Origin: Anaerococcus urinomassiliensis
GTDB taxonomy: Bacteria; Bacillota; Clostridia; Tissierellales; Peptoniphilaceae
Assembly (NCBI RefSeq): GCF_900128425.1
Contig: NZ_LT635782.1
Location: 222,712 to 286,711, forward strand
Length of the DNA stretch: 64,000 nucleotides
Reading direction: 5' to 3'
The translations under genes and the position numbers were made by a program. The stretch's first letter is position 1. The number at the start of each line of letters is the position of its first letter. The notes beneath the pieces were generated by a model. That model ran no database searches and was not told the DNA's origin. It was given only the letters and a program-made list of their open reading frames with translations. Positions 26,697 through 38,241 of the stretch are shown here, piece by piece.

Positions 26697-27400
26697 AAAA
26701 ACCACCTGCTATGCAGGTGGAGGGATTAAGCTTTAGCTTCAAGACCAAAAAATTCTCACTTGTAATATAATTGTGATAACCACATGCACAATAAAAACAA
26801 GGAGAATAAATTGGACAACAATAGTTTATCACATACAAAATGGAGATGTAAATATCATATAGTATTTGCCCCGAAATTTAGAAGACAAGAAATATATGGG
26901 AAACTAAAAAAAGACATAGGTCAAATACTACGAGAACTATGTCAAAGAAAAGGAATAAACATAATAGAAGCCCAGATCATGTCCATATGCTTATAGAAGT
27001 ACCACTAAAATATAGTATCTCAGAAATAATGGGATATCTAAAAGGAAAAAGTTCACTAATAATATTTGATCGACACGCAAACTTAAAATATAAATATGGA
27101 AACAGACATTTCTGGTGTAGAGGTTATTACGTGGATACAGTAGGGCGAAATGAGAAAATGATAAAAGAATATATACAAAATCAACTAAAAGAAGACTATT
27201 ATGCGGATCAAATAAGTATCAAGGAATACTATGACCCGTTTACGGGAGAGTCAGTAAAAAGAAGCAATAAATAAACTGCTTAAGCAGAAGCTGAGAAAGT
27301 GGTGCATGTGGAGATAATACTCGGAGCCCCAATAGGGGCGTGCCGGTATTCGCGCCTTCTAGGCGCTGTGCAAACTACCAGCTAAGCTGGTAGTTTTGAT
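26697..27400 (+). mobile_element. IS200/IS605-family element (tnpA only), degenerate
   Basis: The end hairpins are typical of IS200: CCACCTGCTATGCAGGTGG at 26702-26720 on the left, and CTACCAGC/GCTGGTAG at 27375-27393 on the right, flanking one tnpA. There is no tnpB. The exact ends and flanking tetranucleotide cannot be fixed from one copy. tnpA is frameshifted, so this copy is dead unless helped in trans. Confidence 0.8.
26811..27274 (+). pseudogene. IS200-type transposase TnpA, frameshifted
   Basis: The frame starts at TTG 26811 behind AAGGAG, reading MDNNSLSHTKWRCKYHIVFAP, and breaks near 26970, after NIIEA. It continues in another frame as PDHVHMLIEVPLKYSI through GYYVDTVGRNEKMIKEYI. 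The HUH motif (HVH) and the Tyr-bearing GYYVDTVG helix are both present but on different sides of the break. Loss of a short segment between IEA and PDHVHM, perhaps about 10 bases, would explain it; that size is inferred from relatives. Confidence 0.85.
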
Positions 27401-27411
27401 TGGAGGCTAAT

Positions 27412-28155
27412 ATGAATATTAAAGAAGCTTCTAACATACTTAAGCTCTCTTATCTAAGAGAGTCATATGAGGATTTAATAGAAGAATCATCAAATCTAAA
27501 CTTATCTAACGAAGACTTCTTAAAACTTTTCTTAGAAAGAGAGGTAGAAAGAAGAAAAAACAACGGGATAGCAAGAAGAATAAGAAATGCTAAATTTATC
27601 AACAAGAAATTCTTAGAAGACTTTGATAAAACAAAATATTCTCTAGAACTAAACAAAAAATTTGAATATCTTGAAACACTAAAATTCATAGATAACAAAG
27701 AAAACATAATCATGATAGGAACACCTGGTTGTGGAAAAACTCACTACGCTACAGCCTTAGGCATAAAAGCGTGTATGAAAGGAAAAAATGTACTCTTTAC
27801 ATCAGTTCCCAACTTAGTAATAGAATTACAGGAGGCAATGAGTAAAAATCAAATTACTAATTACAAAAGAAAATTTGAAAAATATGATTTAGTAATACTA
27901 GATGAGCTAGGATATGTATCATTTGATAAAACAGGATGCGAAATATTATTTAATCTCCTCTCATCAAGAAATGATAAGGGATCAATAATATTAACCACAA
28001 ACCTAAACTTTGAAAGATGGGAAGAAGTATTTAAAGATCCAATGCTAACGGGAGCAATAGTAGATAGACTTGCTCATAGAGCCCATATCATGGATATGTC
28101 TAGGGAAAAATCATATAGGATGGAAGATAGCATAGAGTGGTCAAAAAATATGTAA
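27412..28155 (+). CDS. istB: IS21-family helper ATPase IstB
   Basis: This 247-residue AAA+ protein has Walker A GTPGCGKTH, Walker B LVILDELGY, sensor region ILTTNLNFERW and arginine-rich GAIVDRLAHRAHIM, as in IstB. The ATG at 27412 follows TGGAGG; an in-frame TTG at 27400 overlaps that site. The partner transposase istA is missing: an IS200 element sits directly upstream instead, so the IS21 element is truncated. The protein itself looks intact. Confidence 0.9.
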   Translation: MNIKEASNILKLSYLRESYEDLIEESSNLNLSNEDFLKLFLEREVERRKNNGIARRIRNAKFINKKFLEDFDKTKYSLELNKKFEYLETLKFIDNKENIIMIGTPGCGKTHYATALGIKACMKGKNVLFTSVPNLVIELQEAMSKNQITNYKRKFEKYDLVILDELGYVSFDKTGCEILFNLLSSRNDKGSIILTTNLNFERWEEVFKDPMLTGAIVDRLAHRAHIMDMSREKSYRMEDSIEWSKNM

Positions 28156-28259
28156 AGACGCCTTTCCCCTAGGGGAAAGCTAGTAAAAGATATTAAGTAT
28201 TTCTTTACCATAAGTGGACCATTTTTCAATAATAACTGTGGACCATTTTTCGGTTGACA
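28156..28259 (+). mobile_element. right end of truncated IS21-family element
   Basis: After istB, two direct copies of GTGGACCATTTTTC (about 28213 and 28239) lie before a terminal TTGACA ending at 28259. Multiple subterminal repeats and an ACA end are typical of IS21. Immediately after it the IS256 transposase frame begins mid-gene, so this IS21 had inserted into that IS256. A small hairpin CCTTTCCCC/GGGGAAAG lies at about 28163-28180. Confidence 0.7.
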
Positions 28260-28431
28260 TTTACAACAAGAAATGGTACAAGCAAGAAAACAGTTAGATC
28301 ATCTTACGGAAATATAGATCTAAACATACCAAGAGATAGAGAAGGATCCTTTGAACCACAATCATTAAAAAAATACGAAAAAGACATATCAAACATAGAA
28401 AATCAAATAATATCAATGTATGGAAAAGGAA

Positions 28432-28499
28432 TACCCTCACCTAATAATATCTGCAGCTCGTAAACTCGCTGGATATTATTGGCTGGGGCAGACCCTGAC
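28432..28499 (+). repeat. hairpin insert 1 in IS256 transposase gene
   Basis: A 68-nt segment begins TACCCTCACC and ends GGGGCAGACCCTGAC. It folds as a hairpin: AATAATATC (28443-28451) with GATATTATT (28472-28480), and inside CAGC (28454-28457) with GCTG (28468-28471). It interrupts the codons after MYGKG. A partner with the same ends and geometry is at 28603-28671. Confidence 0.65.
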
Positions 28500-28602
28500 C
28501 ACAAGAGATATATCAAGTCACATCAAAGATATTTATGGATTTGGCATATCAGAAATAATGGTAAGCAAAATAACCAACAAAATTCTACCAACCATAGAAG
28601 AG

Positions 28603-28671
28603 TACCCTCGCCTCAATCTTTCTACAACTCATTACATTCGTTGGAAAGAATGGGCTGGGGCAGTCCCTGAC
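28603..28671 (+). repeat. hairpin insert 2 in IS256 transposase gene
   Basis: A 69-nt segment begins TACCCTCGCC and ends GGGGCAGTCCCTGAC. Arms CAATCTTTC (28614-28622) and GAAAGAATG (28644-28652) pair with one mismatch, and CAAC (28625-28628) pairs with GTTG (28640-28643). Arm sequences differ from insert 1 but complementarity is kept. It interrupts the codons after ILPTIEE. Confidence 0.65.
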
Positions 28672-29433
28672 AAAATAGACCATTAGAAAAAGTCTACCCT
28701 ATGGTATTTTTAGACGCCATACACTATCACGTAAGAGAAAACAACATAGTAGTCAAAAAAGCAGTATACATTGCCCTAGGCTACAACCTAGAAGGATTTA
28801 AAAAAATACTAGGACTATTGGTTGGAGAAAACGAATCAAGCAAATACTGGCTTTTAGTATTAAATGGTCTAAAAGAAAGAGGACTAGAAGATGTATTAAT
28901 ATTCTCAACAGACAATCTACCAGGATTTAGTGAGGCTATAGAAGCAGTATATCCAAGATCAGAAATACACCCCAAAAGCGTTGGGAAAATCATGTATAAT
29001 ACATCAAATAAGATACTCCACAAAGTATGTATCCTACAAAGACATAAAAGAATTAATGAAAGACCTAAAAGCAGTATACAAGACACCAACAGAAGACTTA
29101 GTCTTAACAAATTTAGGAGTCTTTGAAGAAAAATGGGGTAAAAAATATCCAATGTGTGTAAGCTCTTGGAAAAACAACTGGACAGAATTATCGACATATT
29201 TTAAATATCCAGAAGGAATAAGAAAACTGATATATACAACAAATGCTATGGAAAACTCCAATAGGCAACTAAGAAAAGTGACCAAAAATAAAACCATATT
29301 TCCAAATGACTATGCTCTACAAAAAAGCTTGTATCTGGCAATGGTAGATGTCTCAAGTAAGTGGACATATAGAATACGAGGCTGGGATCAAATCTTATCC
29401 CAATTATTAATATTTTTTGAGAGGAGGTTTTAA

Positions 29434-29831
29434 TTAAGATAAAAATTTAGTATGAAATCGGCTGCAAATTTTCATGAAAATTTGACAGTTTATTTAAGTT
29501 GTGTAGAATTAAGAAAAGCTCCATTCCTATAGGAATGGACAAACATTGATACATAAAAAATGTATCAACCCTTGCCCTTATGTCAGGATTTAGGTTGATA
29601 CACAAAATTATTTACAGACCCGTTTCATAGTAAAGAGGGTACATATTAAATCTTGAATATAGTTCAAGGAAGCTGGATCTATTATGTGTTTTATGTATAA
29701 TACTTACAAATCTTTTAATTAACTATAAGCTACTTATTATGTATAATATATATAAGATAGTTTGATAAAGAGTGATTAGTAAAATGAATGATTATAAGAT
29801 ATACTGGGCTAATTGATTATAAGGAGATATT
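29434..29831. other. IS256 right end, solo IS3 end and promoter region of the regulator
   Basis: This 398-bp gap has no gene. It holds an inverted repeat CCATTCC/GGAATGG (about 29521-29538), another TTGATACAT/ATGTATCAA (about 29548-29571), and the likely IS256 right end TTGATACACAAAATTATTTA (ending about 29620). Then 29622-29648, AGTAAAGAGGGTACATATTA, is an orphan right end of the 1464-bp IS type with a few changes. The last ~180 bases are AT-rich leader of the regulator gene, with a GGAGAT ribosome site. Confidence 0.6.
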
Positions 29832-30710
29832 ATGTCAGATGGAAGAATGGAATTTAGTAAAATTCTTAAAGATATAAGATATAGAAACAGGCTAAGTCAA
29901 GAAGATGTAGAGTGGGAATCTGTTATAAGCAGAAAAACTATTTCAAAGCTTGAAACAGCAAATTTCAAGGAAGCGAGTATAAGTTCACTCCTAGATTTAT
30001 CAAGGATCTATGGAGAAGATTTGGTTTCTTTATATCTCAAGTATTGCTTTAAGTCAGATATTTTATTTAGAGAAATAATAGAAAGTCTTGATATGTCAGC
30101 TATCTTTATGACTTATGATGAACTCTCCGTCCTAAATAAAAAACTAGAAATAATAAAGCAAGATAGATATTTTAAAATGAAAGAAGAAGACATTTTAATA
30201 ATAGAATTGTTTATAGATAGGCTAAGTGATAAGAGTATGACTATGAATACTTACAAAAATAGGTATGAGGATATAGTAAAATCAAAGCCGCTCAATATTC
30301 TAGATAAAAAATACTCGCCTATTGAGCTTAGAATAGTTATAGAGATAGCTCTTAAGCTTAAGGAGTATAAAGGGATCAGTATATATGATATATTGAAAGT
30401 TTTTTCAGAAAAAACAGAGGGTTCTTACTTGAATTTGATAGTATCTAATATTGATATTAATATGCTTATCGTAGAAAGCAAATATGAGCATGCTCTATTA
30501 ATTATTAACGACAAAATTAGCTTTGCCAGTGAAAAAGGATATTATGACAGTTTAATATATCTCTACTATGATAAGTTTATTTGTGAATATAGACTAGGCA
30601 TAGGTAACTATAGAGAAAGCCTAAAGAAATCTTTGTTTTTGGCAAAATTATGTAAAAAAGATGCATTGAAAAATTTAATAGAACAAAAAAGTAAACATCT
30701 TAATAAGTAG
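29832..30710 (+). CDS. XRE/HTH regulator with TPR-like C-terminus (RRNPP/Rgg-PlcR-like)
   Basis: This 292-residue protein has an N-terminal Cro/XRE helix-turn-helix (about 8-62: LKDIRYRNRLSQEDVEWESV then SRKTISKLE) and an all-helical C-terminal part (about 70-290) of the size and look of the peptide-binding TPR domain of RRNPP regulators. Such regulators sense small re-imported peptides. A 43-residue secreted-peptide ORF lies convergent, two bases apart on the other strand (30712-30843), and a RiPP precursor and maturase lie downstream. It probably controls that cluster; the family call is from layout, not from a search. Confidence 0.7.
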   Translation: MSDGRMEFSKILKDIRYRNRLSQEDVEWESVISRKTISKLETANFKEASISSLLDLSRIYGEDLVSLYLKYCFKSDILFREIIESLDMSAIFMTYDELSVLNKKLEIIKQDRYFKMKEEDILIIELFIDRLSDKSMTMNTYKNRYEDIVKSKPLNILDKKYSPIELRIVIEIALKLKEYKGISIYDILKVFSEKTEGSYLNLIVSNIDINMLIVESKYEHALLIINDKISFASEKGYYDSLIYLYYDKFICEYRLGIGNYRESLKKSLFLAKLCKKDALKNLIEQKSKHLNK

Positions 30711-30711
30711 A

Positions 30712-30843
30712 CTAACTTTCACTAAGTGGATTATCACTGCATGGAACTATTATAATATCTTTATCTTCTTCGGATGCATATACAGAGTCGATAAATCCTA
30801 TACAAAGAGCTAAAGCTAGTAAAGTTGTAAAAATTTTTTTCAT
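30712..30843 (-). CDS. small secreted peptide, candidate signalling pheromone
   Basis: A 43-residue ORF too short for most gene callers. The ATG at 30843 follows a strong TTAGGAGG site. Residues 1-23 are a clean signal peptide (MKKIFTTLLALALCIGFIDS then VYA), leaving a 20-residue acidic mature peptide SEEDKDIIIVPCSDNPLSES. It is tail-to-tail with the RRNPP-like regulator, a common arrangement for pheromone and receptor genes. The core IVPCSDN recurs as IVPCEDN in the second tiny peptide at 57383-57505. Function is inference; a small secreted defence or structural peptide is the alternative. Confidence 0.65.
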   Translation of the reverse strand: MKKIFTTLLALALCIGFIDSVYASEEDKDIIIVPCSDNPLSES

Positions 30844-31232
30844 GAAAACCTCCTAATTGATTTAAAATTATTTTAATAAATTTGCTGATAATTTAATATC
30901 CAACTTGAGGGGTGGACAAGATAATAAGAATATGTTATAATACATGAATTTATAGATTATTTAAAGCTATGTATCATAAATTAGATTTTTTGTCAACCCC
31001 ACAAGTGAGGTGTTAGTTGAATGAAGAATTTATTATAATGAAATTGTAAATTAATTTACCGCTATGTATTATAATACGAGGCTACTTAATTGGTATCGGA
31101 AAAAGTTGTCGACATTACTTTTCAGATAAAATGTTGTTACAGTAGCTATTTCTTACATAATAAAAGTTAAATTTCTATTAAGAATTATTTCTAATTATAT
31201 AAGAAGTGGTTTAAAAATCTAAGGAGGTAGAA
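30844..31232 (+). promoter_or_regulatory. regulatory region of the RiPP cluster
   Basis: A 389-bp gap with no further gene. It carries related motifs: ATGTTATAATACAT (30932-30945), GCTATGTATCATAA (about 30966-30979) and GCTATGTATTATAATACG (31061-31078), the last containing the perfect palindrome GTATTATAATAC (31066-31077). These could be operators or -10 elements for the pheromone gene and the precursor. CCCCAC/GTGAGG (about 30998-31013) is a weak hairpin. The precursor's ribosome site AAGGAGG is at 31221-31227. Confidence 0.45.
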
Positions 31233-31412
31233 ATGAAGCTAGTTAATGAGCCAAGAAACCGTGGAGGGGCTACACCTTCTGCAGGATGTGTTTGTTATAA
31301 TTGGGATAATCACAAAGAAACAAAAGGATTTACTTCCTGGTTTAGGTGCAATTGTGGTTGCATGAACCATGATAATAGGATGGTAAATAGACAAGACGCT
31401 AGAACATCTTAA
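31233..31412 (+). CDS. Cys-rich RiPP precursor peptide (candidate)
   Basis: A 59-residue peptide gene behind a consensus AAGGAGG site and directly ahead of a radical SAM/SPASM maturase. It starts MKLVNEPRNRGGATPSAG. Five Cys occur in two clusters: C19 and C21 (GCVCYNW), and C39, C41, C43 (RCNCGCMNHD), separated by a Trp/Phe/Thr-rich loop (TKGFTSWF). There is no signal peptide. A Gly-Gly at 11-12 could mark leader cleavage. Layout and Cys pattern fit substrates of Cys-rich-peptide radical SAM maturases (CcpM-type), giving thioether or C-C links; exact class not determined. Confidence 0.72.
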   Translation: MKLVNEPRNRGGATPSAGCVCYNWDNHKETKGFTSWFRCNCGCMNHDNRMVNRQDARTS

Positions 31413-31540
31413 TTAATATGGGGCTGTTGCAGGATTTTTCAAAAATTCCTTATTTAAAATAACTTTTAAGATTATATAAGTATGGAATTATTATGAATAG
31501 TTTTGCGGCAGCCATTTTTAAATCAGAAAGGAAACATAAT

Positions 31541-32974
31541 ATGAGTAGTAGATTAGGTACTGTGTTTTGTACTAAAAATAACAAATATTTCTATGATTCA
31601 GGTACAGGTAGAGTAATTAATTGTAGTGACACTGAGGCCTATGAGCTTGGTAAATATTTGGAAGGAAAGCTTAGTATAGAAGATTTAGATTCCTATATAA
31701 GAAAGTTTGTAGAAGATAATAATTTATTAAGAAAACCTATATATCAAAAATTTGATATTCCATCGAAAGAAGAATTTAAAAATCTCCTTAAGGAAAGTTG
31801 CGAACAAATTATAATAGAACTTACTGAAGATTGTAATTTGCGATGTGGCTATTGTATATACAATGAACACCACCCTGATTTTAGAGGATTTGCAAAGAAT
31901 TCTATCAATTTCAATACAGCCAAGGAGACTATAGATTACCTATTAAAGGACTATAAAGGAAATAAATTTAATTTAACATTTTATGGTGGGGAACCACTTA
32001 TAAAATTTAATTTAATGAAAAAGATAATAGATTATACAATTGATACTTATAAAAATATCAAAATATCAGTTTCCTTTACTACTAATTTAACTTTATTAAC
32101 AGAAGAACAAATAGAGTACTTTAAAAATATAGATGCCTTTAGAGTATCCCTTATGGTAAGTTTAGATGGACCTTCAAGTATCCATGACAATTATAGAAGA
32201 GATATAAAATCTCGACCAACTCATAATATTGTCGAATCTAATTTTAAAAAGCTTGTTAATAAATTCTATAATAAAGAGAAAAATAGAACGATATCTATAA
32301 ACTGTGTACTTACACCTCCGTATAATGTAGATAAATTCGATGAGCTTGATAATTATTTTTATAATACATTGAAGATACCTAAAGATATGAATTTAAATTA
32401 TACATATGTTGATTCTGGAAATATGATTTATGATATTGATCAAGATTATGAATATAAAAGTCTAGAAAACTATCAAGTTGATAAGGTTAAAGATGACGAA
32501 AAAAATTATTATCCGTATCTGATTGCGAAAAAAATATACAGGATGAACAATAGAAGAGTTACTCAAGATAAGGATCTTATCGAAACAATAGGGTTACACG
32601 GAAATTGTATCCCTGGTAACAGAAGACTGTATTTACAGACTGATGGAAACTTTAGGATTTGTGAGAAAACTGGTAATGCAGTAAGTATTGGTGATTATAA
32701 AAATGGTTACTATTTTGATAAGATTTATAAATATTATTACGAGGATTATGTCAAATATTTCAAGAATCTCTGCTCTAATTGTTGGGCAAGTGACATGTGT
32801 GATATATGTTACGATTTAGTAATGGATGAAAAAGGGATAAAAGATAATCTTGATGAAGAACTATGTCCTATGGTTAGAGAATATTTAAAGGAAGACTTAA
32901 GTCAATATTTTGAGATTATCGAGCACAATCCTAATTATATTGAGGAAATACTAGGAAAATATAGTTTTTCTTAG
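31541..32974 (+). CDS. radical SAM/SPASM peptide maturase (CcpM-like)
   Basis: A 477-residue enzyme. The SAM cluster motif CNLRCGYC (C98, C102, C105) is followed by LTFYGGEPL. A C-terminal SPASM-type region has HGNCIPGNRRLYLQTDGNFR, ICEKTG and CSNCWASDMCDIC for auxiliary 4Fe-4S clusters. The N-terminal ~90 residues resemble a precursor-binding (RRE-like) region. The start at 31541 follows AGAAAGGAA; an in-frame ATG at 31493 has no ribosome site. It presumably modifies the Cys-rich peptide encoded 129 bases upstream; a weak hairpin (31434-31451) in the gap could lower maturase expression relative to precursor. Confidence 0.85.
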   Translation: MSSRLGTVFCTKNNKYFYDSGTGRVINCSDTEAYELGKYLEGKLSIEDLDSYIRKFVEDNNLLRKPIYQKFDIPSKEEFKNLLKESCEQIIIELTEDCNLRCGYCIYNEHHPDFRGFAKNSINFNTAKETIDYLLKDYKGNKFNLTFYGGEPLIKFNLMKKIIDYTIDTYKNIKISVSFTTNLTLLTEEQIEYFKNIDAFRVSLMVSLDGPSSIHDNYRRDIKSRPTHNIVESNFKKLVNKFYNKEKNRTISINCVLTPPYNVDKFDELDNYFYNTLKIPKDMNLNYTYVDSGNMIYDIDQDYEYKSLENYQVDKVKDDEKNYYPYLIAKKIYRMNNRRVTQDKDLIETIGLHGNCIPGNRRLYLQTDGNFRICEKTGNAVSIGDYKNGYYFDKIYKYYYEDYVKYFKNLCSNCWASDMCDICYDLVMDEKGIKDNLDEELCPMVREYLKEDLSQYFEIIEHNPNYIEEILGKYSFS

Positions 32975-32985
32975 GAGGAGTTAAG

Positions 32986-33816
32986 ATGATTAAAATAAAT
33001 AATTTGACAAAGTCCTATGGCGATAAAGTCGTCTTGGATGGGATAAACTTGGACTTAGGTAAGGGACTTTACGGTCTTCTTGGTGAAAATGGGGCTGGAA
33101 AGTCTACTTTGTTTAAAACTCTGATAGGTTATGAAGGAGTTGATAGTGGAGAAATAAAGCTTGGTTCTCAAAAAATTGGCTTTCTTCCCCAAAAATTTAT
33201 AGGTTACCCTGACTTTTCTGTGGATGATTTTCTATCCTACATGGCGGACCTAAAATCAATTAGCAAAGAAAATATGACAGGCGAAATACAAAATGTCAAA
33301 CAGATCTTTAATTTAGATGGATTTTCTAAGAAAAAACTTAAAAAATTATCTGGAGGCCAGCTTAGAAGGGTGGGTCTTGGCCAGGCCTTTTTAAATAATC
33401 CTGACATAGTATTGCTTGATGAACCCACTTCCGGTCTTGATCCAAGCGAGAGGATTAGGCTTAAAAACTTCATTGTAGAGATGAGCCACGATAGGCTTAT
33501 AATCCTATCCACCCATATAGTTGATGATTTAACTTCCATAGCCAAGGAGATTTTAATTCTTCATAATAATAAAATTGCGATGGATGCTAGCGAAACTTCC
33601 TTAATTCAAAACTTAGAGGGCTATGTTTGGGAATGTCCTTATGATTTGTATTTGAAGAACCAATCACAAAACGATATCCTTTCAAAGGTCTACCAAAAAG
33701 AATCTAAAGATTTTATCAGGCTTATTAGTAAAGAAAAACCATTTGAGATGGCAAAGGCCATAGAGCCTAACTTGGATGATGTATTTTTAGCAGTTATAAA
33801 GGATTTTGACCTATGA
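32986..33816 (+). CDS. ABC transporter ATP-binding protein (RiPP cluster)
   Basis: This 276-residue ATPase is of the CcmA/NatA type: Walker A GENGAGKST (33-41), signature LSGGQLRR, Walker B IVLLDEPTSGLDPSE, and the switch His in STHIVDD. It follows the maturase by 11 bases with AGGAGG, and its stop overlaps the start of the next permease by four bases. With the two following permeases it likely forms an export or self-immunity ABC system for the modified peptide. Confidence 0.9.
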   Translation: MIKINNLTKSYGDKVVLDGINLDLGKGLYGLLGENGAGKSTLFKTLIGYEGVDSGEIKLGSQKIGFLPQKFIGYPDFSVDDFLSYMADLKSISKENMTGEIQNVKQIFNLDGFSKKKLKKLSGGQLRRVGLGQAFLNNPDIVLLDEPTSGLDPSERIRLKNFIVEMSHDRLIILSTHIVDDLTSIAKEILILHNNKIAMDASETSLIQNLEGYVWECPYDLYLKNQSQNDILSKVYQKESKDFIRLISKEKPFEMAKAIEPNLDDVFLAVIKDFDL

Positions 33817-34982
33817 TTTATGAGTTAAAAAAGATTTTTTCAGGCCTTTTAGCTAAATTATCTGTAATATTATTAATAGTATTTATTTTTGCTATTAGTA
33901 TATTTGCTTTTTCGAAATTTGAAGCAGACGTCGGGACCTATAAGGGAAAGGCTGGTTTTAATTATGAAGCGGGTTTAGAAGAAAAATATGAGGGAGAGAT
34001 TGATTCTAATTTAATCAATACTTTTATAGACAGCGCAGACTTAAGTGGGGGAAAGGATAAGGCCTTAATATCTATGTATACAAAATTTCCAAGCCTATCA
34101 AATACCATTTTAAATGCCTACGAACCTCTCCAAGGTGGAAATACTAAGGCATTAGAGAATCTACTTGAGACTGGTGGTTCAGATTTTTATGATAGAAATG
34201 TCATGAATATAGAATCCCTGCTTGATGAAAGATTAAATACAACCATGCCAGAAAAAGAAAAGGCCATGGTCATAGAAAGGGCAAGCAAGATAGACAAACC
34301 CTATAAGTTTGAATATTTTGGAGAGTGGAATCTAATATATGATGTTTTTTCTGTGATAATACTAATAAGCTTTATCATTATTATTTTTCAAATATCGTCT
34401 ATCTATAGTGTAGAAGCTGAAAACTCAATGGAAATTCTCCTAAGGTCTTTGGGAGGTAACCAAGTAAGGAAAATTATCTATAGGAAAATTGCGGCAACTT
34501 TTGTCCTTGTTACAAGTGAGGTCCTTATAGTATCAATAATTTTTACTTTGGTGAGTTTATATTTTACTGGTCTAAGAGGATTTAATACCCCTGTCCAGCT
34601 TTTCTATTTTAACAGTATTTACGATTATAGTTTTGGTCAGACTTATATCCTAATTATTTTAGGATTTTTATTAGGATCCTTAGCCATAGCCATGATGACT
34701 TTCCTAATAAATAGGTTTGTAAAAAGGTCCTTCCAAGCCTTTATATTAGCTTTGGCTGCCTTATTATTGCCGAAACTTTTAGGTTTTATTACGGCTAACA
34801 ACAATATTTTCCTAAAAATCCTAAAGTCTATGCCAATAAACTTGATTCAAATTGGAGAGATGGTGAAATCACTTTATTTGGGTCTTTTTGGTAACTTGCA
34901 AATATTTAGTATCTACTTACTTTCTATTTTTATAATAGCCTTGACAAGTCTAATCCTAATATTAAAGGAGAGAAAGCTATGA
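33813..34982 (+). CDS. ABC transporter permease (RiPP cluster, first)
   Basis: This 389-residue membrane protein has an N-terminal span (about 12-31), an outside loop of about 140 residues, then five or six spans from about 180 to 385. The start overlaps the ATPase stop (ATGA). It is the same general class as the next gene, so the pair may form a heterodimeric ABC-2-like permease. No specific family name could be assigned. Confidence 0.75.
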   Translation: MIYELKKIFSGLLAKLSVILLIVFIFAISIFAFSKFEADVGTYKGKAGFNYEAGLEEKYEGEIDSNLINTFIDSADLSGGKDKALISMYTKFPSLSNTILNAYEPLQGGNTKALENLLETGGSDFYDRNVMNIESLLDERLNTTMPEKEKAMVIERASKIDKPYKFEYFGEWNLIYDVFSVIILISFIIIIFQISSIYSVEAENSMEILLRSLGGNQVRKIIYRKIAATFVLVTSEVLIVSIIFTLVSLYFTGLRGFNTPVQLFYFNSIYDYSFGQTYILIILGFLLGSLAIAMMTFLINRFVKRSFQAFILALAALLLPKLLGFITANNNIFLKILKSMPINLIQIGEMVKSLYLGLFGNLQIFSIYLLSIFIIALTSLILILKERKL

Positions 34983-36154
34983 AGTATGAATTTAAAAAAA
35001 TATTTTCAAACCCTATCTTAATCCTACTTACAGGTCTAGTATTTTTTCTAACTGTGGGAGCTTGCTTATATAATATTTCTGATAGGAGGGTTGAGGTTTT
35101 TGAAGACGGAGAAAAAAAGGTCTTAGAGGGAAGAGCAGCCCTTGATTATTTATACAAAAATAGTGAAAGAACTGTCCTAGATGAGAAAACTATAGAAAAT
35201 ATCTTTACTAAATACGACGGTAAATCCTACGACTATGTGGCAGAAAGTTTCGCAAAAACAGATCCTAGTCTACTTTCTCATATATATTCTATTTATAAGA
35301 ACCAGATGTTTGATGAAGAAGGCATCCTCCATAAGTCAAGGGTTTCTACCTTTGATATAGGGAAAGTGAATAAAGATTATACTATGGGATATATAAAGGA
35401 AACTCATATGTATACTGAAAAAGAATTGGCAAATACTGATAAGAAGCTCAGCAAGATAAATAAAAAAGTAGAACACGGCTTTACAGGTCATTTCAGAAAC
35501 TTTTTTAACACATCTTATATAGGCTATTTTCTCTTTGCCTTTTTGGTTATAGTCATATCAGTCTACCTTGTATCTTTGGAAAACTGGTATGAGACAGATA
35601 TAATCTTAAAGTCAATAAAAAACAAGGCGACCTTAAGGGTGGGAATAAATAAAATTGGGGTGATTTTTATCTTTGTAAGCGGGATTTTTATCTTAATAAA
35701 CTTAGTCATGGTGGGGCTTACTATCGCACCCTACAAATTTTCTAATTTAGATATGATGATTCAGTCATCTGTAGCCTTATTAGATTCAAATATGGACCTA
35801 AATTATGGAGAGCTTATAGCTTTGATGATGGGCCTAACCTACATATCGACTCTAAGCCTAAGTATTTTTGCTGGATTTTTAGCAAGCCTAGTAAGAAGTT
35901 CTAAAGTATCTTTACTAATAGTCTTAGCAACGATAGGGATTTTATTTCCAAGATATTCCAATCCTTTGATAGATAAGATAGTTTCAATCCTACCCCAAGC
36001 AGGAATATTTTCTCCAAGATACCTAACAAACTTTTATTCTTATGAAGTCTTTGGGGTAGAAATTAGCAATGTAAATCTAATAATTATTACAAGTTTGATT
36101 TTAATCTTTGCTTCTATTGCTGGGATATTAATTAAATCAGCGAGGAAAAATTGA
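34979..36154 (+). CDS. ABC transporter permease (RiPP cluster, second)
   Basis: This 391-residue membrane protein has the layout of its neighbour: N-terminal span (about 12-31), soluble loop to about 175, then five or six spans. Its ATG overlaps the stop of the first permease (ATGA) and its stop overlaps the TTG start of the ABC exporter, so four genes from 32986 to 37899 are translationally coupled. Confidence 0.75.
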   Translation: MKYEFKKIFSNPILILLTGLVFFLTVGACLYNISDRRVEVFEDGEKKVLEGRAALDYLYKNSERTVLDEKTIENIFTKYDGKSYDYVAESFAKTDPSLLSHIYSIYKNQMFDEEGILHKSRVSTFDIGKVNKDYTMGYIKETHMYTEKELANTDKKLSKINKKVEHGFTGHFRNFFNTSYIGYFLFAFLVIVISVYLVSLENWYETDIILKSIKNKATLRVGINKIGVIFIFVSGIFILINLVMVGLTIAPYKFSNLDMMIQSSVALLDSNMDLNYGELIALMMGLTYISTLSLSIFAGFLASLVRSSKVSLLIVLATIGILFPRYSNPLIDKIVSILPQAGIFSPRYLTNFYSYEVFGVEISNVNLIIITSLILIFASIAGILIKSARKN

Positions 36155-37899
36155 AAGAAAAGCTTAAAATACTGATTTATACACTAACTTATCTTGTAAA
36201 GATTGATTTTAAATATATAAGTCTTGTATTAATTAAGTCAGTCTTGTTTGGGATTAGGCCCGTGATTAATTTAAAATTAACCCAAATACTTCTTGATTCA
36301 TTGACAAGGGGGCAAGAAATAGAGTTCATAAATATACTAATTTTTATAAGTGTTTTTACTTGCTTAACTGATTTAGTGGGTTTTAGTATAAAAAAGATAG
36401 AGGATTTTTCCTTGTTGGAGATTAATAAATTTATAAATATAGATATACTAAATAAAATCAAGAAATTAGACGCTAAAAAGTTAGAAACTAGTGAAACTTA
36501 TGATATTATAAACAGAGTTAGGGAAGATTTTACAGTGGCCATGCTTGATAGTTTAAATATAATGTTGGATATATTTTCGGCAACCATAGCTAGTATATCC
36601 TACATTGTGATAGTTCTCTCCTACAATATTTTCTATCTATTAATTTTGATAGTGCCCATAATTAGGTTTTTAGTTGAGAAAAAATATGTTATTCTTGAAT
36701 ATAAAAATAGACTTAATAATACTCAGTTAGAAATTAGGAAAAACTATATATATGCTATGACAAGTGATAGTGAAAATTTTAAGGAGCTTAAGGTATACAA
36801 AGCATTTGATTTCTTTATAAGTATTTTTACACAATTATCAAATTGCATAAATAATACATATAAGAAAATCTACTATAATAAATATAGAAGTCTGTCAGTA
36901 TTATCTATATTAGATAGTCTTGTCGATTTTTTTGCATCCGCCAATTTAGGTTTAAGAACGTTTAATGGAGTTATTAGTTTGGGAGATTTTATACTATATA
37001 ATAATTCTATAGATAATATGAAAAATTCATTATTTACAATATTTCTTAATGGTGCACTTTTAAATAAGAACTTAGAAATTATTGAAATGGGAAAAGAGTT
37101 TTTTGAATTAGACGAAGAAATGAAAAGCTATGGTAAACATAATATTGAAGCGATAGATAATATAGTGATTAAGGATCTATCCTATTCTTATAAACAGAAT
37201 AAGGTTCTATCTAATATAGATTTACGATTTGAGAAAAACAAATCTTATACAATAATGGGAGAAAATGGATCGGGTAAATCGACTCTTTTAAAAATACTTA
37301 TGGGTATTTATGGGGATTATGGTGGACATATATATGTAAATGGGATTGATTTTTCTGAAATAGATATATTTTCTTATAGAAATCGCATTAATGTTATGTT
37401 TCAAAATTACATAAAGTATAGACTTAGTATCAAAGAAAATATTTTTCTAGACGAGAATGCAAAAGATGAGGAAGTCAGTAAGTATCTATCTAGCCTTGGT
37501 ATGGATGGATTAATTGATGATATAAATTCAAATCTAGGTTATGAATTTGATGGAGGAAGGTGGTTATCTGAAGGACAATGGCAAAAATTAGCATTTTTAA
37601 GACTTATAAATAAAGAGTGCGATATGTATTTGTTAGATGAACCATCCTCTAGTTTGGATATTGTTTCTGAGAGAAAATTATTAAATGTACTAGAAAAAAT
37701 ATCTGGAATTAAAATTATGATATGTCATAGGTTCAATGAGTATATATTAAAATCTGACGAGATAATCATGCTGAAGGATGGAGAAATAATTGCTAAAGGT
37801 AACCATAATCAGATGCTTAAGGTATGTGAAGATTACAAAGACATGTATAAAATTTATATTGAGACTCGTCACTATAATAAATCCACAGATGAGTTATAA
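36151..37899 (+). CDS. ABC exporter, fused permease and ATPase (RiPP cluster)
   Basis: This 582-residue half-transporter starts at TTG 36151, overlapping the preceding stop, with GAGGAAAA as ribosome site. Residues about 1-310 hold the six-span domain; residues about 340-575 hold the ATPase: Walker A GENGSGKST, unusual signature LSEGQWQKLA (in place of LSGGQ), Walker B MYLLDEPSSSLD, and CHRF switch. There is no C39 peptidase domain, so a leader would be cut by another protease. It likely exports the mature peptide. Confidence 0.85.
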   Translation: MKEKLKILIYTLTYLVKIDFKYISLVLIKSVLFGIRPVINLKLTQILLDSLTRGQEIEFINILIFISVFTCLTDLVGFSIKKIEDFSLLEINKFINIDILNKIKKLDAKKLETSETYDIINRVREDFTVAMLDSLNIMLDIFSATIASISYIVIVLSYNIFYLLILIVPIIRFLVEKKYVILEYKNRLNNTQLEIRKNYIYAMTSDSENFKELKVYKAFDFFISIFTQLSNCINNTYKKIYYNKYRSLSVLSILDSLVDFFASANLGLRTFNGVISLGDFILYNNSIDNMKNSLFTIFLNGALLNKNLEIIEMGKEFFELDEEMKSYGKHNIEAIDNIVIKDLSYSYKQNKVLSNIDLRFEKNKSYTIMGENGSGKSTLLKILMGIYGDYGGHIYVNGIDFSEIDIFSYRNRINVMFQNYIKYRLSIKENIFLDENAKDEEVSKYLSSLGMDGLIDDINSNLGYEFDGGRWLSEGQWQKLAFLRLINKECDMYLLDEPSSSLDIVSERKLLNVLEKISGIKIMICHRFNEYILKSDEIIMLKDGEIIAKGNHNQMLKVCEDYKDMYKIYIETRHYNKSTDEL

Positions 37900-38241
37900 T
37901 ATTAGGACTATAAAAAAACTCCAACTTCTGAACTGACCCCAAAAAGTTGTACCAACCAACTTAAGGAGCTCAGTTTTTTGGCTCTATGTCAAATCGTGTT
38001 GGTAAATAATAATTAACCAAGTACTTTTCCATGGATAGGATATCCTATTCATGGAAATTTTTTAAGAAGATTCATTATACTCTAATTGCGCAATAGATAC
38101 ATTTTCAAGACTTTTTTAAAAATAACAAGCATGTACTCATATAGTAATGTTCATAGTAGCAACTAATTGACAAAATTTATATAAATGTTAAACTGTAATA
38201 GTGACATTTAACGTTTTCATAAAATTTTAGGAGGTTTAGTT
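37900..38241 (+). other. IS relics and promoter region before yfcC
   Basis: A 342-bp gap. 37926-37979 is a degraded IS3 left end like that at 1-344 (AACTGACCCC ... AACTTAAGGAGCTCAGTTTT), whose AACTGA/TCAGTT arms before TTTT could end the RiPP transcript. It abuts the 84-nt repeat copy 2 at 37980. The rest is leader: TTGACA at 38168-38173 with a poor -10, and AGGAGG ribosome site of the transporter gene. Confidence 0.6.
37980..38063 (+). repeat. 84-nt ISL3-end-like dispersed repeat, copy 2
   Basis: It begins GGCTCTATGTCAAATCGTG and has the same length as the copy after tuf. The palindrome centre differs (GGATATCC rather than GGAATTCC) and one arm base is mismatched (CTATTCATGG). It is followed by TTTTTT. 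It joins the IS3 relic without a gap. Confidence 0.75.

Follow-up and report, generated by a model that had tools for sequence, protein, structure and literature searches.

The stretch of DNA considered here, referred to as the window, spans 64,000 nucleotides of the Anaerococcus urinomassiliensis assembly GCF_900128425.1 (contig NZ_LT635782.1, positions 222,712 to 286,711 of the forward strand), in a genome of 2.19 Mb. The genes of a small Cys-rich precursor peptide, a radical S-adenosylmethionine (SAM)/SPASM maturase, an ATP-binding cassette (ABC) ATPase, two permeases and an ABC exporter form a single plus-strand array, ahead of which lie a regulator gene and a small secreted-peptide gene. 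The original prediction of a cluster for a ribosomally synthesised and post-translationally modified peptide (RiPP) with a thioether-type maturase is supported, and the coupling that it proposed between maturase, ATPase, permeases and exporter is confirmed at the coordinates given below. We put at roughly 0.77 the probability that the cluster is a ruminococcin-C-like sactipeptide system; it represents a divergent branch of the RumC/Apre_1838 superfamily that most likely works as RumC does. Since it falls below the curated cut-off of each of the four nearest families, the cluster is not assigned to any one of these.

The precursor and its superfamily

The precursor gene (31233-31412, +) is preceded closely by AGGAGG and encodes 59 residues, MKLVNEPRNRGGATPSAGCVCYNWDNHKETKGFTSWFRCNCGCMNHDNRMVNRQDARTS, with Cys at positions 19, 21, 39, 41 and 43 (CxC-17-CxCxC), in agreement with the C-x-C and C-x-C-x-C clusters first described for it. 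A direct search yields six near relatives, 75-92% identical, with a nearly unchanged leader and all five Cys kept. Of 91 candidates, 49 were reached by a profile built from 20 precursors; several of these carry the title “Apre_1838 family putative sactipeptide bacteriocin” and a single one the title “RumC family sactipeptide”. Among the 69 distinct precursors assembled, 61 display CxC...CxCxC, five CxC...Cx3C and three neither, two of the latter (P0046 and P0048) beginning inside the first CxC. To note, the peptides taken from genomic stretches were selected for a CxC and a later Cys pair, which favors the count of 61; the full arrangement is found in 45 of the 49 database proteins, collected without that selection. 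The Cys spacing, which the original prediction could assign to no nameable class, is thus common in the Apre_1838/RumC superfamily.

The CxC and C-x3-C pairs of the RumC family (NF035950) are both present in the window core (C19, C21, C39 and C43), C41 being extra. With a homologous precursor, a CxC...Cx[C/x]xC frame and a RumMC-related maturase alongside, the peptide belongs, as judged from sequence, to the Apre_1838/RumC superfamily, a broad and descriptive label. Profile-profile comparison links the 10-member precursor group of the window to the Apre_1838 group (96.6%, E 5e-10) and to a Paenibacillus group (87%, E 4e-6) that contains one “RumC family” peptide, both E-values being those of a single pair. 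Searched against the PDB at E up to 10, the 20-member profile retrieves a sole chain, that of ruminococcin C (6t33, E 0.09), and the RumC model NF035950 matches one of the 20 members of set A2 at E up to 0.1.

The maturase and its relatives

The maturase gene (31541-32974, +) encodes 477 residues and its product starts with a fold resembling a RiPP recognition element (RRE). The reading frame is open from 31493; the start at 31541 is preferred because P0050, a 93% identical relative, is also 477 residues long. The radical SAM motif CxxxCxxC occupies residues 98-105, and the SPASM spacing, CX12GX4CX36CX2CX5CX2CX18C, is like that of RumMC (CX13GX4CX36CX2CX5CX2CX18C, PMC6779426) save X12 for X13. 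The best family is RumMC (NF035951), matched at 379.8 bits over nearly the full length. The radical SAM/SPASM character claimed for this protein thus stands; its description as CcpM-like does not hold as far as the nearest class is concerned, since RumMC scores 139 bits higher than CcpM (TIGR04068, 240.9 bits).

The AlphaFold2 model of the maturase (pLDDT 90) begins with strands and helices in an RRE-like order. Its best Foldseek match, aligned from residue 3, is CteB, a SCIFF maturase, and the fold is that of thioether maturases. Together with the PapB ranthipeptide model, which also matches the maturase (107 bits), the CteB match would suit a ranthipeptide, with thioethers on β- or γ-carbons, rather than a sactipeptide. 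The RumMC score exceeds the PapB score more than threefold, and the Cys layout of the precursor is that of RumC, neither the SCIFF layout nor Cys-x3-Asp repeats, making a ranthipeptide very unlikely. SCIFF was also rejected as the class of the cluster: the SCIFF-like maturase and precursor of this genome stand elsewhere. They form a separate system (G000:C10:580219-581256, L002), in which a second radical SAM maturase lies beside a six-Cys precursor.

In a tree of 34 maturases, with rows hand-chosen from 120 listed proteins and fetched stretches and with a midpoint root, the window maturase and P0050 fall within a clade of 15 maturases (support 100/100). This clade takes in the maturases of L009, L040 and G002, the three for which precursors were read, while the other 19 rows are RumMC-type, Paenibacillus, Apre_1838-type and Sarcina maturases. 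One sequence, L046, changed sides between a 26-row tree and the 34-row tree retained.

Several scores weigh against the ruminococcin-C-like assignment. The 379.8 bits of the maturase compare with a curated RumMC cut-off of 720, while P0139 reaches 894 on the same model, and the CcpM score with a cut-off of 500. The window peptide gives no match to the RumC precursor model NF035950 at E up to 1, and scores 18.5 bits on the Apre_1838 model (TIGR04067) for a cut-off of 45. Against the PDB, the profile of its 10-member group matches nothing and the peptide alone retrieves a lipid transfer protein only (E 0.87). The link to RumC therefore runs via the family and the maturase, as the window peptide alone does not reach RumC.

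Comparison with the best-known member illustrates what is conserved and what diverges. Ruminococcin C of Ruminococcus gnavus (RumC1/C2, with RumMC1/2) shares with the window the CxC...C-x3-C frame, a C-terminal NxxxA[KR] motif and a maturase that combines an RRE-like part with radical SAM and SPASM parts at nearly the same Cys spacing. In contrast, the RumC triplet lacks the middle Cys, five precursor genes and two maturases replace the single copies of the window, the window maturase falls in a separate clade, and a PlcR/Rgg-type regulator adjoins the window cluster. Apre_1838 (TIGR04067), encoded on plasmid pAPRE01 of Anaerococcus prevotii, comes from the same genus, displays CxC...CxCxC and is likewise accompanied in a single array by genes for an ATPase, permeases, a maturase and an exporter; it differs by a sixth Cys (CxxCxCxC), an NPLGR leader, a two-component system alongside and a maturase 33% identical to that of the window. 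Apre_1838 and its maturase Apre_1837 are presented as predicted clusters in two reports (PMC3132745; PMC4289311, the latter for Apre_1837). The plasmid carrying it (L048) is typed as conjugative, and downstream of the cluster lie genes for a VanZ-family protein and for a second radical SAM protein. Plasmid p2 of Sarcina sp. JB2 (L050) also groups all six kinds of gene of the window array, two permease genes included, in a single array, but the order of precursor and maturase is swapped and the maturase is 32% identical. Closer are the maturases of Tissierella pigra (L009) and of G213 (L040), of the same clade and 42-44% identical, whose precursors resemble that of the window in the leader and the N-terminal half of the core, while Ala replaces the middle Cys and a new Cys occurs three residues past the invariant Asn. 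SCIFF-type peptides are reported for strains of T. pigra in the description of the species (PMC7738495).

Maturase relatives are scattered. At E up to 1e-20 they occur in six of 31 genomes in the genus, at 1e-30 in 25 of 249 in the order, at 1e-60 in four of 391 in the class and two of 398 in the phylum, and at 1e-55 in four of 299 in one further family. The counts for genus, order, class and phylum each include the genome of the window, and the genome sets overlap. Picking by Cys pattern found a small Cys peptide near the maturase relative in 15 of 31 stretches (L004-L034) and in six of eight later ones; among the stretches without one are some with weaker maturase matches and some that end before the precursor, and the G213 precursor emerged only in a longer stretch. 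Six conserved precursors and like peptides so often beside maturase relatives place the cluster beyond chance. BLAST with the window proteins was run on 17 stretches, and in 11 the maturase has an ATPase, at least one permease and an exporter of this type nearby. Among these stretches, permease matches are often weak, L036-L038 and L046/L047 are near-duplicates, and L009 and L041 come from one genome. In L041, two S8 subtilases adjoin the maturase. Two maturases of the group occur within one stretch in L042 and L044, in tandem in the latter, and maturase genes split in two pieces are found in L035 (9576-11037), L049 (8929-10484) and L045 (4579-7330). A phage or virus origin was rejected: none of ten pattern-matching viral_contigs stretches encodes a relative, and the eight phage matches listed, out of 43 records, are below 30% identity.

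Predicted bridges, export and product

In RumC2, four thioether bridges connect Cys22-Asn35, Cys24-Glu31, Cys41-Arg61 and Cys45-Arg53; the inner bridge comes first, and the N-terminal pairing is the model favored by the authors (PMC6779426; also the review PMC8172795). By analogy with this map, the N-terminal hairpin of the window peptide would link C21 with the region of K28 and C19 with that of G32, and the C-terminal hairpin C43 to R49 and C39 to R57, with C41 as a middle rung at about R53. The predicted total is five nested S-Cα thioethers in a 2+3 double hairpin, for a mass change of about -10 Da.

Several features are consistent with such a map. G32 is invariant in the 10 members of the window group and lies 13 residues after C19, the distance between Cys22 and Asn35 in RumC. 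Aligners pair the second core Asn of RumC (N56) with Asn52 of the window peptide, an invariant residue, so that R49 and R57 coincide with the proven acceptors 53 and 61. The RumC ending, NANVAK, is of the NxxxA[KR] type, with the proven acceptor at residue 61, and this C-terminal motif is present in nine of the 10 members of the window group and five of the 59 remaining precursors. R53 is proposed for C41 because it stands midway between R49 and R57, RumC offering no counterpart of C41.

Other observations count against this map. G32 is located 11 to 14 residues past the first Cys in other members, P0003 has Ile at the position of R57, and NxxxA[KR] is missing from 55 of the 69 precursors. A gapless count from C43 leads to V51/D55/S59 instead of R49/R53/R57, making the C-terminal register alignment-dependent, and the Paenibacillus profile aligns RumC in a different register. 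C41 may also be free or put to another use, and the thioether chemistry of the product is itself a prediction from sequence. On balance, the register R49/R53/R57 is probably to be preferred over 51/55/59.

The role of C41 separates two finer readings. In the wider one, which we advance tentatively, the product is a sactipeptide with five thioethers in 2+3 rungs, RumC being its reduced form; the middle rung may be reversed in L009 and L040, and a dedicated PlcR-type quorum circuit would act through its own operator boxes. Under the same tentative reading, the 2+3-rung scaffold would be common in nature, with no solved example found. A product with four thioethers as in RumC, leaving C41 as a free thiol, a disulfide dimer or a metal site, appears rather doubtful: RumC works with four bridges, and the Cx3C form of five of the 69 precursors indicates that the middle Cys is dispensable, but its retention in 61 of 69 is above what is expected of an unused thiol. 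If the fifth core Cys is bridged in most relatives as well, RumC would be the exception and the usual product a more rigid peptide.

In L009 (9416-9616) and L040 (12223-12420), the middle Cys of the triplet is replaced by Ala and the new Cys is at position 55. This change possibly reflects a donor moved to the opposite strand, with donor and acceptor sides swapped, to judge from the two precursors. It counts as a single event, since the maturases of both are sisters in the tree.

For a system working as RumC does, the following pathway can be proposed. The RRE-like domain of the maturase would bind the precursor leader, and its radical SAM site would oxidise α-carbons to which the Cys sulfurs add, forming the two nested hairpins. 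The modified peptide would be exported by a 582-residue permease-ATPase fusion (36151-37899, +, TTG start), which has Pfam matches and counterparts in relatives. No peptidase domain is among the Pfam matches of this exporter, and no protease was seen in the cluster among the window genes scanned. Accordingly, the leader is probably cleaved off outside the cell, by a protease of trypsin-like or other type; R8 and R10 stand ahead of the core.

The ATPase (32986-33816, +; ABC_tran Pfam match, with a gene of like kind in relatives) is a probable self-protection or second export module. It would protect the producer together with permease 1 (33813-34982, +; an ABC-2-like protein with a weak ABC2_membrane_3 match below the cut-off and counterparts in relatives) and permease 2 (34979-36154, +; nothing notable in family scans, weak counterparts in relatives). 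From the ATPase onward, adjacent genes overlap by a few bases.

The expected product is a narrow antibacterial peptide. It is improbable that it serves instead as a signal or as a surface or metal-binding peptide, an idea that draws on the quorum-type regulator adjoining the cluster and on there being no immunity gene of proven kind within it; RumC is antibacterial (PMC6779426), a separate ATPase-permease set is of the kind used in self-protection, and the presence of maturase relatives in six of 31 genomes of the genus is patchy.

The product, flagged as possibly new, would be so only as an uncharacterised branch of the superfamily and not as a class. The kind is already known and no laboratory study of the five-Cys branch was found. 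No characterised five-Cys member was recognised among the papers listed from the open literature, mostly in capped lists, although one could exist elsewhere; no mention of five thioethers was found in nine papers listed. Ruminococcin C is the only member of the superfamily that we found characterised.

Regulator, candidate pheromone and genomic setting

The regulator gene (29832-30710, +) encodes 292 residues with a helix-turn-helix (HTH) domain and helical repeats, predicted to adopt the fold of RRNPP-type (PlcR/Rgg/ComR-like) proteins. The original prediction of a peptide-responsive type holds, given the fold and the adjacent propeptide-like gene; the gene itself lies outside the coordinates that it gave for the cluster. 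The Pfam HTH_3 and HTH_19 matches are below the cut-off, and the sequence matches no solved protein at E up to 0.1, but the AlphaFold2 model (pLDDT 89.9) has PlcR-PapR, ComR and Rgg2 as top solved Foldseek neighbors (E 9e-5 and weaker). The modeled combination of an HTH with a helical-repeat peptide-binding fold is thus that of RRNPP regulators, with modest TM-scores of about 0.4-0.54 that weigh on the other side.

A 43-residue secreted peptide with a signal-type N-terminus, as judged by a simple hydrophobicity filter, is encoded convergently with the regulator (30712-30843, -) and constitutes a candidate pheromone propeptide. Its DIIIV stretch presumably recalls the streptococcal SHP pheromones. 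As in PlcR-PapR, ComR-ComS and Rgg-SHP, a regulator of this fold thus adjoins a small secreted-peptide gene, although here the cognate signal is a candidate only. Among the 249 genomes of the order, 26 encode a relative of the regulator, that of the window included. Twenty-five regulator loci were taken, of which five gave no alignment; among the 20 scored, six (the window counted; five distinct peptides) are accompanied, no more than 220 nt away, by a convergent gene for a secreted peptide, a count made without chance control. These convergent peptides carry an acidic stretch ahead of their C-terminal part. A mostly hydrophobic convergent ORF of 27 residues in L067 and same-strand ORFs in L065 and L076 passed the filter and were not counted as propeptides.

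Four exact copies of the 11-mer TATGTATNATA, all on the plus strand, are candidate operators: two precede the regulator (29692-29702 and 29738-29748) and two the precursor (30968-30978 and 31063-31073). They are the only copies in the window, for 0.59 expected, and all fall within these two gaps. None of 100 whole-window shuffles reached four copies, and none of 2000 shuffles of both gaps placed two in each; these figures overstate the significance, since the motif was picked by eye from the same gaps. Genome-wide, 18 copies compare with 11 of a reversed control pattern. Beside the regulator relatives, the box was not found, with three scattered matches across 24 other loci. We take TATGTATNATA to resemble half of the PlcR box. 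The PlcR-like palindrome TATGTANNATACATA (23 matches in the window for 6 expected, with 0 of 100 shuffles giving as many) was set aside for the stricter TATGTATNATA, its matches being scattered and partly at the same place on both strands. GCTATGTATYATAA, allowing up to two mismatches, occurs at chance level (4 versus 3.07), and its two exact copies are the boxes before the precursor.

A peptide signal is the probable trigger of the operon. The regulator, together with the re-imported C-terminal part of the 43-residue peptide, would act through the TATGTATNATA boxes. In streptococci, Rgg-type regulators are reported to control radical SAM RiPPs (PMC8092268, PMC13361665). What is new here is an upstream regulator of PlcR/Rgg-type fold, a convergent pheromone-like gene and TATGTATNATA boxes confined to two gaps; the cluster thereby offers a candidate signal peptide that may activate the pathway in Anaerococcus, a genus of anaerobes associated with hosts.

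The best promoter-like site before the operon (30913-30941, +), TGGACA-17-TATAAT with an extended -10, agrees at 11 of 12 positions; it is a consensus match only, 55 such sites occurring in the region for 46 expected. An IstB-type ATPase gene and a Mutator-family transposase broken across several frames are located 5' of the regulator (27400-29433). The G+C content is 28-31% at 30001-34000 (regulator, precursor and maturase) and 27% at 36001-38000 (exporter), compared to 32-36% in the flanking 4 kb on each side and in the permease stretch; as 28-31% is also reached elsewhere in the window, this is a hint of acquired DNA and no more. On the 3' side of the array, the genes for a C4-dicarboxylate carrier and for two M20 peptidases look like ordinary metabolism.

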